Source: Chloroflexota bacterium (GTDB taxonomy: Bacteria > Chloroflexota > Limnocylindria > Limnocylindrales > CSP1-4). From it: DNA of 35,229 bases. Numbering within the stretch: the first letter of the stretch is position 1; the number at the start of each line of letters is the position of its first letter. Of the stretch, positions 18,926 to 26,121 are shown piece by piece. Made by a program: the position numbers and the translations under genes. Under the pieces are notes generated by a model, which was not told the DNA's origin, searched no databases, and saw only the letters and a list, made by a program, of their open reading frames with translations. The DNA is taken from the NCBI GenBank assembly GCA_003158875.1, contig PMLK01000085.1:1-35229 (forward strand), given 5' to 3'.

Positions 18926-19621
18926 CTAGCGACGCCGCAGAGGAACCTCGCGCTGCCAGCGCTCCTGGGCAGTGGAGGTGCGCGGTAGATCCGGGACCAG
19001 TCCCTCGCGAACAGCTCGAGCGGCCAGCTCGGCCCGGTTCTGGGCATGCAGCTTCTCGACGATGTTCTTCAAGTGGAACTTGACGGTGTTCTCGCTGATG
19101 CCCAGCTCCGCCGCAATCTCGCGGTTGCGTTGTCCGAGCGTCACGAGCTTGAGGACCTCCAGCTCGCGTTCGGTCAAGTGCCCGGTATCCTGGCGGGCGC
19201 CGCCCGGCGCTCTGAGGAACTCGTCGATGATGCGCGCCGCCGTGGCCGGCGTGATCGCCGGTTCGCCGCGAGCAACGCCCTCGAGCATCGACCGGAGCTG
19301 CGGCGCTTCGAGGTTCTTGAGAAGGTAGCCCTGAGCGCCGGCCTTGATGGCTCGGAACAGGTCGGCCTCGTCTTCGCTCACCGTTAGCATGACGATGGCT
19401 ACTTCTGGATGGCGCTCCTTGATGCGAGCGGTCGCTTCCAGACCGGAGACGTTCGGCATCCGGACGTCCATCAGGACGACGTCGGGCGAGGTCTCATCGA
19501 CCAACTGAATGGCATCGGCGCCATCGGAAGCCTGACCCACGACCTCATGTCCCCAGGCCAGAAGGAGCGAGGCCACGCCGTCGCGGAATAGGGCGTGGTC
19601 GTCGACGAGTACGGTTCTCAT
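18926..19621 (-). CDS. NarL/LuxR-family response regulator
   Basis: A 231-residue transcriptional regulator. The receiver domain (about 1-120) has the acidic pair Asp7/Asp8, phospho-acceptor Asp52 in LMDVRMP, Thr80 and Lys102. The C-terminal LuxR-type helix-turn-helix (about 150-210) includes LTERELEVLKLVTLGQRNREIAAELGIS with the typical NTVKFHLKNI recognition region. The ATG at 19621 overlaps the sensor kinase stop by four bases (ATGA), so the pair is translationally coupled. Upon phosphorylation it should dimerise and bind promoter DNA. The target is not visible. The redox operon directly downstream is a candidate, as the two sets of genes are separated by only 118 bases. Confidence 0.95.
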   Translation of the reverse strand: MRTVLVDDHALFRDGVASLLLAWGHEVVGQASDGADAIQLVDETSPDVVLMDVRMPNVSGLEATARIKERHPEVAIVMLTVSEDEADLFRAIKAGAQGYLLKNLEAPQLRSMLEGVARGEPAITPATAARIIDEFLRAPGGARQDTGHLTERELEVLKLVTLGQRNREIAAELGISENTVKFHLKNIVEKLHAQNRAELAARAVREGLVPDLPRTSTAQERWQREVPLRRR

Positions 19622-21054
19622 GATTTGTAGTCTGCCTCCGAAACGCCGGCAGCGGGCGATCGGACCGCCTGACGCTGCCCTGTTGGATAGTGGATCTCAC
19701 CTGGTGAAGCGACGCGTTCGGGCAGAAGACCCGAGGAGCCGCCACCTACTGGAATTCGTAGTTCGACTCTGGTTCCGGAGCCGGGCTGGCTCTCCCAGGC
19801 GATGCTTCCGCCGGCCGATTCGGCCCGCTCCCGCATCCCGGCCAGACCGAAGTGCGGCCATCGTTCCGGACCTATGGTCAACAGCTCAGCCTCGAACCCA
19901 ACGCCGTCGTCTTCCACGCGGAGCACCAGGTCGTCGCCCTGGAGCGAAAGTTCCAGGCAGACTCTATGGGCGCGGGCGTGCTTTCGGACGTTGGTCAGCG
20001 CCTCACGGGCGATGCTGAATACCTCGGCTTGCGATGCCGCCGACAACTGCGCCGCGCCTGCCTCGGGGCTGGCATGGAATTGGACCGCCAGCTTGGACGA
20101 CTCCGCATACAGGGCCGCGTATTCCTCCAGGGCCGCGGTGACGCCACGGTCCGGCGGAATCGGTGTCGAAAGGCTGAGAATCGCCTCGCGTACGTCCACG
20201 TAGACCGATCGGGCCGCGGCCGCCATCTCTCCCAGCTGCACTCGAGCCTCGGCCACTCGGCCGTCGGCCAGCATCTCGTCGGTGGCCTGGGACTTGGTGT
20301 TTACGTAGCCGAGCACCTGAGCGAGGCCGTCGTGCATCTCGCGGGCTATGCGTTCGCGCTCGCCCTGCACGGCGACGATCTTGAGCTGGCGCTGCAGCCG
20401 CGCCGCTTCGAGCGCCAGGCCAGCCTGGGTCGCAAGAGCTGCCAGCGTCTCAGTCTCCGCCCTCCCGAAGCGGCGGTGAAGGGCTCGCGGAACGGCAACG
20501 CCCAGCATCCCGACACGCTTGTCGCCGAGACCGACCGGCGTGACGAGTCGGATCTCATACCCGGCTCGGAGGAAACAGCCGAGATCGTCCTCGGCGGGTG
20601 CCATGACGCCCCCGGCAGCGGGCTCGTCGCCTAGCAGGACTCCAGGGGCCGCCCGCGCCGCACGGAGGCTCAACTCGCCCGCCGGGCCGTCCAGGGCCAG
20701 AAGTGCCGCGTCGGCCCGCAGAAGCGAGCGGGCATGGTCGACGATGACGGCGATCGTCTGATCCGGATCGGCCTGACCGGCAACCGCCAGGCTGGTGTCG
20801 TAGAGAGCGCGAAGGACGTCGTTGCGCGACTCGAGAACGTCGTTCCTCTCACGCAAGTCGCGGGTCAGGCGGTCGATCTGGCGAAAGGCGAGCCAGGCTC
20901 CAATAGCGGCGACGGCGCCGACTACTGCGACCAGGAATAGGGTATGGAACGGGAACGGCAACAAGGCATCGAAGGCCGTATCGCTGAGGGCTTCGAGGGT
21001 GCCGACGAGCAGCACCGCGGCGGCGACTGCAAGCCAACGGCGGCTGCGGTACAT
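19618..21054 (-). CDS. Membrane sensor histidine kinase, NarL-system type (HisKA_3) with GAF-like domain
   Basis: A 478-residue sensor kinase. Two N-terminal hydrophobic helices (about 7-25 and 33-57) anchor it, with almost no periplasmic loop. A coiled-coil linker rich in RNDVLESRNDVLRAL leads into a GAF-like domain (about 85-225). The dimerisation domain carries the phospho-accepting histidine in EMHDGLAQVLG, and the HATPase domain shows EALTNVRKHA, EDDGVGF and GLAGMRERAES. A GGAG is 6 bases before the ATG at 21054; an in-frame upstream extension has no membrane or domain character. The lack of an external loop suggests it senses something in the membrane or cytoplasm, for instance redox state through the GAF domain. 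The ligand is not identifiable. Confidence 0.93.
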   Translation of the reverse strand: MYRSRRWLAVAAAVLLVGTLEALSDTAFDALLPFPFHTLFLVAVVGAVAAIGAWLAFRQIDRLTRDLRERNDVLESRNDVLRALYDTSLAVAGQADPDQTIAVIVDHARSLLRADAALLALDGPAGELSLRAARAAPGVLLGDEPAAGGVMAPAEDDLGCFLRAGYEIRLVTPVGLGDKRVGMLGVAVPRALHRRFGRAETETLAALATQAGLALEAARLQRQLKIVAVQGERERIAREMHDGLAQVLGYVNTKSQATDEMLADGRVAEARVQLGEMAAAARSVYVDVREAILSLSTPIPPDRGVTAALEEYAALYAESSKLAVQFHASPEAGAAQLSAASQAEVFSIAREALTNVRKHARAHRVCLELSLQGDDLVLRVEDDGVGFEAELLTIGPERWPHFGLAGMRERAESAGGSIAWESQPGSGTRVELRIPVGGGSSGLLPERVASPGEIHYPTGQRQAVRSPAAGVSEADYKS

Positions 21055-21207
21055 GGCTGTCTCCAGGCGCTGAGGGCCTCGGGCGGCTCGTGCCGGGTCC
21101 GAGATTTGCCCACCCGTTCGGGCGGCACTATGCGCCGAACGGCGACAGATTCGAGCGGATCGGCCTGGCTGTCCTGCGGAGTGGCACGACCGGGGGGCCC
21201 GGATTAT

Positions 21208-21246
21208 GTCGTAGCGACCGATCACATCCGTTGACTGGCCGATCAC
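21208..21246 (+). repeat. Short direct repeats and small palindrome in the MarR promoter
   Basis: CCGATCAC occurs at 21218-21225 and 21239-21246, 21 bases apart, which is two helical turns, on either side of the -35 box. The small palindrome GTCG-TAG-CGAC at 21208-21218 is nearly repeated as GTCG-TGG-CGAC exactly 50 bases later at 21258-21268. These look like protein-binding sites. Confidence 0.45.
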
Positions 21247-21259
21247 CTCAGGAGATAGT
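21231..21259 (+). promoter_or_regulatory. Candidate promoter of the MarR-zinc ribbon operon
   Basis: TTGACT, a 17-base spacer and GATAGT (four of six). The predicted transcription start falls at about 21266, only a few bases before the ATG at 21269, so the message may be almost leaderless. Confidence 0.5.
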
Positions 21260-21281
21260 CGTGGCGACATGTTCGCCACGA
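21259..21281. promoter_or_regulatory. Perfect palindromic operator centred on the marR start codon
   Basis: Arms TCGTGGCGA and TCGCCACGA are exact reverse complements, separated by CATGT, which contains the start codon. The site begins at the last base of the predicted -10 box. Length and symmetry match MarR-family operators, and its position predicts autorepression. In RNA the same bases would form a hairpin over the start codon. Confidence 0.6.
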
Positions 21282-21844
21282 GCCGATCCGCACCTGAACC
21301 CGCGCCCGAGTCGTCCGACTCAGGCGACACGGCTGAACTCGAGGTAACCGCCCAGGCGGCCGCCCAGCGCGTCGTCCGGCTGTTCCCCGAGGTATACCGT
21401 CGCTATCACTGGGCCAATCGGGTTCAGGGAGCCGATCTGCCGGTTAGCCGCCGCGCTCTGGAAGTGCTGCAGCACCTCTCGATGAGCGGCCCGCTGACCG
21501 TTGGCGAACAAGCCGAGCATCTGGGGCTGAGACGCAACTCCGTGTCGGAGTTGCTGCAAAGGCTCGAGGCCAAGGGGCTCGTCGACAGGATCCGCGATGA
21601 GCGCGATGAGCGCCGCGTGCTGGTCTGGCTGACAGATGCGGGACGCGACGTCGTCTCCAGGGTCGGTCAGGTGCTGGCGCCGGATCTCATAGCCCAGGTC
21701 ATGGAACAACTTTCCCCGGAGGAGCGAGCGGTCGTCATCCGCGGTGTCGAACTGCTTGCCACCACCGACCCCAGCGGGTCGCGCGCTGCCGCTTCTGCGG
21801 CCACCGATCCACCTCAACGACAATCTGTAAGGAGCGGAACGTGA
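21269..21844 (+). CDS. MarR-family transcriptional regulator
   Basis: A 191-residue DNA-binding regulator. The winged-helix core spans about residues 60-130: LEVLQHLSMSGPLTVGEQAEHLGL, the recognition helix RRNSVSELLQRLEAKGLV, and the wing RIRDERDERRVLVWLTDAGR. Helices on both sides should form the dimer interface. The first 25 and last 30 residues are polar and probably disordered. The ligand is unknown; MarR proteins often respond to phenolics or oxidation, but this product contains no cysteine, which argues against a thiol-switch mechanism. The start codon lies within a 23-base palindrome. The downstream zinc-ribbon gene overlaps its stop by four bases (GTGA), so the two are coupled. It is divergent from the sensor kinase gene. 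Confidence 0.92.
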   Translation: MFATSRSAPEPAPESSDSGDTAELEVTAQAAAQRVVRLFPEVYRRYHWANRVQGADLPVSRRALEVLQHLSMSGPLTVGEQAEHLGLRRNSVSELLQRLEAKGLVDRIRDERDERRVLVWLTDAGRDVVSRVGQVLAPDLIAQVMEQLSPEERAVVIRGVELLATTDPSGSRAAASAATDPPQRQSVRSGT

Positions 21845-22092
21845 CCGTCTCGATTAGCTGCGATTCCTGCGGCATGCCTCTCGCCGGGGCCGAAGACCAC
21901 GCCCTGGCCGACACGTCTATCCCGTATTGCATCCATTGCGCCCCGGAAGGCCACCTCCAGAACGCGGCCGAGACTCTGGAGAGATTCACTCAATGGACCA
22001 TGCGTCAGGAAGGACTCGACTACGGCGTGGCCAGGGAAAGGGCGCGTGCCTACCTGAAGCTCATGCCGGCCTGGAAGGATGCCAACCTGTAG
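21841..22092 (+). CDS. Zinc-ribbon domain protein, 83 residues
   Basis: A small protein resembling the putative zinc-ribbon family Zn_ribbon_2. Cys7 and Cys10 in CDSCGMPL and the pair in YCIHC (about residues 30-33) should bind one zinc ion. The C-terminal half is helical (ETLERFTQWTMRQEGL, then RARAYLKLMPAWK). The GTG start at 21841 has an AAGGAG 6 bases upstream and overlaps the marR stop by four bases. Family members often accompany transcription regulators, and the tight coupling to marR suggests a shared role, perhaps as cofactor or part of the response. A direct function is not known. Confidence 0.85.
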   Translation: MTVSISCDSCGMPLAGAEDHALADTSIPYCIHCAPEGHLQNAAETLERFTQWTMRQEGLDYGVARERARAYLKLMPAWKDANL

Positions 22093-22115
22093 CCGGGAGA
22101 GGGCCAGCAAGGCGG

Positions 22116-22140
22116 GCCGCCGGCGAGTTCCGGCGGCTTC
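22116..22140 (+). terminator. Hairpin after the MarR-zinc ribbon operon
   Basis: Perfect 8-bp GC stem (GCCGCCGG and CCGGCGGC) with a six-base loop, 24 bases after the zinc-ribbon stop, followed by TTCGTCGTT, which is only moderately T-rich. It is a likely transcript end. Confidence 0.5.
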
Positions 22141-22302
22141 GTCGTTCCCGTTGGTCGTTACTCGCGTCGTCCCCGCGGCCGAGCCGGGAATCGTTCTGTG
22201 GATTGACCCCGCCGTCGGCGGCGCCCCGTATGATCGAACCCGCGGTTTCCCGGCGCGCCCATAGAAAGGGTCGCCCTCGTAGTCGCATACAGGAGCCATC
22301 GC

Positions 22303-22590
22303 ATGCCGCATATGGATCTCGTCGGCTGGATCGTGGTCGGGTTCTTCGCCGGAGCTCTCTCCGGTGCAGTCGTCGAGAGAGGCCCGCACGGCTGCCTGGC
22401 AAATACCGTCGTCGGCGTTCTGGGCGGATTACTGGGCGGCTGGTTCGCGACTGAAGAGATGCACATGGACAGCACCAGAGGCTTCCTCGGAGCCCTCCTG
22501 GTGTCGTTCCTGGGCGCCGTCGTAATCCGCCTCGTTCTCGACGCGCTGGAAGGCCGGGACCGTCGCAACCATCGCGGCGACCACCACTGA
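22303..22590 (+). CDS. GlsB/YeaQ/YmgE-family membrane protein
   Basis: A 95-residue protein of the transglycosylase-associated (Transgly_assoc) family. It has three short glycine-rich hydrophobic helices (about 6-25, 32-50, 58-82), including the typical GWIVVGFFAGALSG and NTVVGVLGGLLGGWF repeats, and a charged His/Arg/Asp tail. Family members are small stress-induced inner-membrane proteins whose mechanism is not known. An AGGAG is 7 bases before the ATG at 22303. A TATGAT at 22229-22234 could be a -10 box, with a TTGACC upstream at a poor spacing of 20 bases. It stands alone between the zinc-ribbon gene and citrate synthase. Confidence 0.9.
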   Translation: MPHMDLVGWIVVGFFAGALSGAVVERGPHGCLANTVVGVLGGLLGGWFATEEMHMDSTRGFLGALLVSFLGAVVIRLVLDALEGRDRRNHRGDHH

Positions 22591-25938: not shown

Positions 25939-26121
25939 TGGAGCAGCCTAGCCGAGCGCGCCCGATAAGGTTGCCAGGCCAAATGTCGGGACCGAATCGC
26001 CTGAGTCCAGGCCATGACGTCGAGACTCCGTCAGGGTCGCGGTTTTCGCCCAACGGCCGTAGGCGGTATCTTTCCCAGGTCCATCGGCGACTCCCGATGG
26101 ACCGGACAGGAGGAGCCCTAG

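Follow-up and report, generated by a model that had tools for sequence, protein, structure and literature searches.

Comparison of related loci outlined a putative operator at the start codon of a MarR-family gene (marR) in a 35,229-nt stretch of Chloroflexota DNA (hereafter the window). The inverted repeat that encloses this start codon is probably the site through which the MarR protein represses its own gene and a co-transcribed gene encoding a zinc-ribbon protein (znR), as judged from sequence comparison. The feature itself is confirmed, its function as an operator is likely, and its parts are of known kinds (Table 1).

Table 1. Coordinates of the features of the marR locus in the window.
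Feature	Position	Strand	Remarks
Divergent GAF histidine kinase	19618..21054	-	Probable start ATG 21054
O1, conserved upstream block	21203..21230	.	Directly upstream of -35
Element A, GTCGTAGCGAC	21208-21218		Within O1
Element B, CGATCACATCC	21219-21229		Within O1
-35 hexamer TTGACT	21231..21236	+	TTGACG in most relatives
-10 hexamer GATAGT	21254..21259	+	Ends 9 nt before ATG
Inverted repeat, proposed MarR operator	21259..21281	.	TCGTGGCGAC ATG TTCGCCACGA; dyad at T of ATG (21270)
marR, MarR-family winged-helix regulator, 191 aa	21269..21844	+	No NCBIfam equivalog above cut-off
Element B, second copy	21279..21289	.	CGAGCCGATCC in window, CGAGCAGATCC in most relatives; codons 4-7
znR, 83-aa Zn_ribbon_2 protein	21841..22092	+	4-nt overlap with marR end

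The repeat reads TCGTGGCGA-CATGT-TCGCCACGA, with fully complementary 9-nt arms and the ATG of the marR open reading frame (21269-21271) inside its middle. This agrees with the sequence-only reading, which had placed nine-base arms around a CATGT holding the marR start codon; its nine pairs are exact, but the wording "perfect 23-base palindrome" was loose, as the middle CATGT is asymmetric. Across 18 orthologous loci the site takes the form TCGTnGCGAC-ATG-GTCGCnACGA, a 10-3-10 repeat with its dyad at the T of the ATG. The tenth pair is C versus T in the window, where the T at 21272 disrupts the innermost pair, and the G that would complete it is present in 9/14 genus loci. Of the 13 distinct sequences, 10 lack the fifth pair, which is G-C in the window.

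The product of marR belongs to the MarR family by its winged-helix domain (residues 59-117; PF12802, 47 bits against a cut-off of 27; PF01047, 42.2 bits against 24.6), and MarR proteins in the PDB were also matched. Comparison with NCBIfam equivalogs assigned it to no known MarR subfamily, the best match being TransRegRv0880 (39.8 bits against a cut-off of 220), and the AlphaFold model of the protein was poor (mean pLDDT 51; 11/18 alignment sequences). Each of the 14 genus genomes that carry marR has znR next to it, and the short overlap between the two genes is present in 13/16 loci, the others showing a gap (L018) or being broken by N (L020 and L023). A structure search returned no convincing solved-structure relatives of the zinc-ribbon protein. 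On the other side, the longest open reading frame of the histidine kinase (19618-21330) begins at GTG 21330, antisense over marR; its likely start is the ATG at 21054, as in L025. This upstream neighbour differs in some relatives, and L025 and L032 carry another divergent gene that, by reading of the open reading frame, is chemotaxis-receptor-like.

At E <= 1e-15, 17 of 101 genomes searched matched marR, counting the genome of the window, and a family-wide search of 107 genomes returned 17 at E <= 1e-25, confined to 2 of 27 genera. The named records carrying the gene are "Chloroflexi bacterium" metagenome-assembled genomes (MAGs), most of them of fen origin. The ATG-anchored alignment comprised 16 loci, with L024 (35% identical) left out before counting, and the addition of L056 and L057 brought the set to 18, which are relatives rather than independent observations. 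L025-L035 duplicate contigs already in the set and were counted once.

The window has a GC content of 67%, and it contains 10 repeats with 9-nt arms and a 0-10 nt gap (each nested match counted separately), against 4.85 +/- 2.46 expected from 60 dinucleotide shuffles, one of which attained that count. Since such repeats are not rare here, the repeat by itself is weak evidence, and the case for the site, as drawn from the aligned sequences, is carried by its conservation. Strong GC-rich inverted repeats with short loops also lie at 2215-2241 and 26078-26103, and a second 9-bp inverted repeat falls within marR itself, over recognition-helix codons (21534-21554). The latter has a perfect copy in one (L012) of the 13 relatives in which that stretch was found, and is thus probably due to chance.

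The alignment revealed two conserved blocks. The first, from -66 to -33 relative to the ATG, has the conserved sequence AATATGTCGTAGCGACCGATCAGATCCGTTGACG and includes the -35 hexamer; the second, from -15 to +20, has the conserved sequence GATAGTCGTnGCGACATGGTCGCCACGAGCAGATCC and includes the -10 hexamer, the palindrome and codons 1-7. Over the 14 genus loci, the majority base has a mean frequency of 0.94 in the -10 hexamer, 0.88 in the left arm and 0.95 in the right arm, and this mean spans 0.88-0.95 over O1, the -35 and -10 hexamers, the arms and element B. By the same measure, the spacer between the -35 and -10 hexamers (0.55) and codons 8-21 (0.62) have drifted.

The palindrome also follows the presence of the gene. 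With at most one mismatch, TCGTNGCGACNNNGTCGCNACGA occurs in 12 of the 14 genus genomes with marR, in each case at the marR start codon, and in none of the 7 genus genomes without it, some of whose apparent absences may be assembly gaps, the genomes being MAGs. The sequence-only reading had named loss of the palindrome in close relatives as grounds for rejecting it, and this outcome is mainly favourable to it. One of the two exceptions (G015, locus L018) is diverged, with more than two mismatches. The other (G010, locus L016) has an intact marR and retains O1, the promoter and the right arm; a stretch 2 nt shorter destroys the left arm and brings the ATG 2 nt nearer to the -10 hexamer. G002 has lost marR together with the operator and the front part of znR. 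In the genome of the window, the start-codon site is the sole match with fewer than three mismatches. At three mismatches there are five more sites, against one for a reversed control; four of the five were inspected as candidates for a wider regulon, and all four, which overlap open reading frames of 100 aa or more, were treated as background. Six further two-mismatch sites are scattered across the genus, and G016, which carries one of these, has no marR.

Evidence that the right arm is maintained as DNA comes from codon usage. At the DNA level codons 2-7 are frozen, in contrast to the 14 that follow, which drift. Genus sequences with the same residue all use one codon at positions 2-5 and 7 (ACG 14/14, AGC 13/13, GCC 12/12, TCC 12/12 and GTC 9/9), and Arg6 is encoded by AGA in 10 of 12 sequences, whereas AGA makes up 8 of the 319 Arg codons in the remainder of these genes. 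A formal codon test had only two columns among the first eight to draw on (p 0.018), for which reason raw counts are reported, and the frames of L020 and L023, broken by N, are a source of noise in that analysis. Because codons for the same residue are identical and the rare AGA is used, the aligned codons indicate that selection keeps the DNA, not the protein, in this segment. The opposite view, in which the N-terminal peptide MVATSRS is kept for the sake of the protein, with the repeat arising as a by-product or by chance, could appeal to the frequency of such palindromes in a GC-rich window and to the repeat within marR that behaves as chance, but we regard it as highly improbable: codons are frozen and not residues alone, and the non-coding left arm and the promoter are conserved too. 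Under the operator model, the coding right arm would instead have the operator dictate the first residues of the protein, MVATSRS in relatives and MFATSRS in the window.

A promoter scan of 20900-22400 identified a single sigma-70-like promoter, TTGACT-17 nt-GATAGT, kept across relatives as TTGACG-17-GATAGT with 9 nt between its end and the ATG. The -10 hexamer and the inverted repeat have one base in common, which bears out the earlier description of a site abutting the predicted -10 box. By the general rule of spacing between the -10 element and the RNA start, transcription is inferred to begin at about 21266, 0-4 nt before the ATG. As the -10 hexamer is conserved and ends so close to the start codon, the marR mRNA is probably leaderless or nearly so. 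Shine-Dalgarno-like 4-mers are nearest at 16 nt from the ATG (-19 to -16) when all 18 loci are considered. AGGAG occurs in the window at 14 nt before the ATG, and several relatives have GGAG there, which leaves a longer leader a small probability; a Shine-Dalgarno sequence at 21250-21254 was rejected, given this distance and the lack of one at usable distance in relatives. In the excerpt of PMC3160421, leaderless genes are recognised by the lack of a usable Shine-Dalgarno sequence together with a -10-like hexamer located some 10-12 nt ahead of the start; GATAGT spans from 15 to 9 nt ahead of the ATG. Of the 12 Chloroflexi genomes in a table of the same source, 4 have leaderless genes, with a mean of 4.7% of genes, so that the marR layout would represent a minority mode there.

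In the proposed mechanism, then, promoter, operator and first codons would all occupy the same DNA. A MarR dimer bound to the repeat would cover the promoter from the edge of the -10 hexamer to about +16, over the start point, so that RNA polymerase could neither bind the promoter nor open it; release of MarR, presumably driven by a ligand, would turn the marR-znR operon on. The comparison thus backs the transcriptional half of the earlier proposal, a MarR operator over the -10 and start region that blocks initiation.

The translational half, in which an RNA hairpin hides the start codon, fared differently, and we consider it very unlikely. If GATAGT is the -10 hexamer, the transcript would include no more than the final few bases of the left arm, and the two layers of the sequence-only reading conflict with each other. 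RNA folding was run from four assumed starts. Strong folding (-17.5 kcal/mol, z -2.2) is predicted for a hypothetical longer RNA with both arms, but the start that the conserved -10 hexamer sets lies within the left arm, and RNA from 21266 forms no start-codon hairpin (-5.4 kcal/mol against -6.5 for shuffles). Among the 18 loci, covariation of the arm pairs does not rise above the level of shuffles (81.5% paired against 82.3%), the fifth pair being broken as described above.

The repeat might also be the site of another regulator of marR-znR, a possibility whose main support comes from the O1 block. O1 is retained both next to the histidine kinase and next to the other divergent genes (L025 and L032), and therefore belongs to marR rather than to the kinase. 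O1-like elements with a TTTACG -35 were also found, in the same position, before a carboxymuconolactone-decarboxylase (CMD)-family gene (PF02627) in the two genomes having that gene (L072:2896-2925 and upstream of 1501 in L094; G015 and G008). This gene starts about 86-89 bp beyond O1 and is preceded by GAGGAG or AAGGAG; it is a possible second member of the regulon, or O1 there may be a shared activator site. In addition, O1 and the promoter persist in G012, which lacks marR and znR and in which a transglycosylase-associated gene comes next (L071:4295-4400). A shared factor other than MarR would fit this distribution of O1, which shares element A with the start-codon site. The palindrome, however, tracks marR and is lost in G012 though O1 stays, and we judge it rather unlikely that a protein other than MarR is its binder. 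Another O1-like element with a promoter-like continuation (L090:1501-1522, G004 contig 120) has no visible gene start downstream and is perhaps a relic, and O1 matches in G010-C16, G003-C123 and G002-C19 showed no promoter-like continuation.

Returning to MarR as the putative binder, the consensus elements common to O1 and the second block (GTCGTAGCGAC, 11/11; CGATCAGATCC/CGAGCAGATCC, 10/11) suggest, as shared sequences, that one protein may bind at both. The joint score of A and B was reached in none of 5000 shuffles of the upstream block, and the score of the second element alone in 1.6%. The occurrences of O1 before the CMD-family gene and in G012 count against a single protein at both. A more elaborate arrangement, which we put forward tentatively and hold to be unlikely, would have two composite sites bracketing the marR promoter, namely O1, made up of A and B, and a start-codon site made up of A, inverted A and B, with one MarR assembly holding both and clamping or looping the promoter; the two copies of A are 50 bp apart and those of B 60 bp apart. 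Were this true, half of one site would lie in codons 2-7, with selection on the operator dictating the MarR N-terminus, and a lone O1 at other promoters would mark a small MarR regulon.

MarR-family autorepressors such as Escherichia coli MarR and OhrR use palindromic operators over promoter elements. The system outlined here resembles them in having a MarR-domain protein, a palindrome over its own promoter and a small local target set, and departs from them in the placement of its dyad at the start codon and in an operator one half of which is coding. The palindromes of the family span 16-20 bp and often lie over the -10 and -35 elements, according to the excerpt of PMC5401885. The same excerpt describes CrtR of Corynebacterium glutamicum, a MarR-type, negatively autoregulated and leaderless regulator with apparently one genomic site, features mirrored here by a MarR-type protein with proposed autorepression, a predicted leaderless mRNA and one close site in the genome. 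The motif required by CrtR, unlike that of marR, is situated in the region separating divergent genes, 25-28 bp ahead of the RNA start of crtE, and the excerpt describes no start-codon palindrome for it (PMC5401885). Excerpts of other sources report leaderless or near-leaderless regulator genes with inverted-repeat operators in the promoter region for restriction-modification C proteins (PMC4824078), CvkR (PMC9938897) and PY54 cI/cro (PMC4488713), all from other protein families; C.Csp231I differs further in having two upstream operators that mediate activation and repression (PMC4824078). For an ArsR/SmtB case in Thermus, the RNA start was mapped at -3 of the first codon, as given in the excerpt of PMC5658604. 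Our literature search on start-codon operators returned only these C proteins, CrtR, CvkR, PY54 cI/cro and Thermus ArsR/SmtB, and none joining the MarR family, a zinc ribbon and leaderless transcription.

The layout of the marR locus is hence unusually clear, though ordinary in kind. It would be a clean natural example of bases shared by promoter, operator and coding sequence, with the binding site setting the first residues of the repressor. Furthermore, it predicts the operator and the target operon of an uncharacterised MarR/zinc-ribbon pair in uncultured peatland Chloroflexi, and it cautions against explaining the start-codon palindromes of such GC-rich genomes as RNA hairpins before a reading as DNA operators has been considered.
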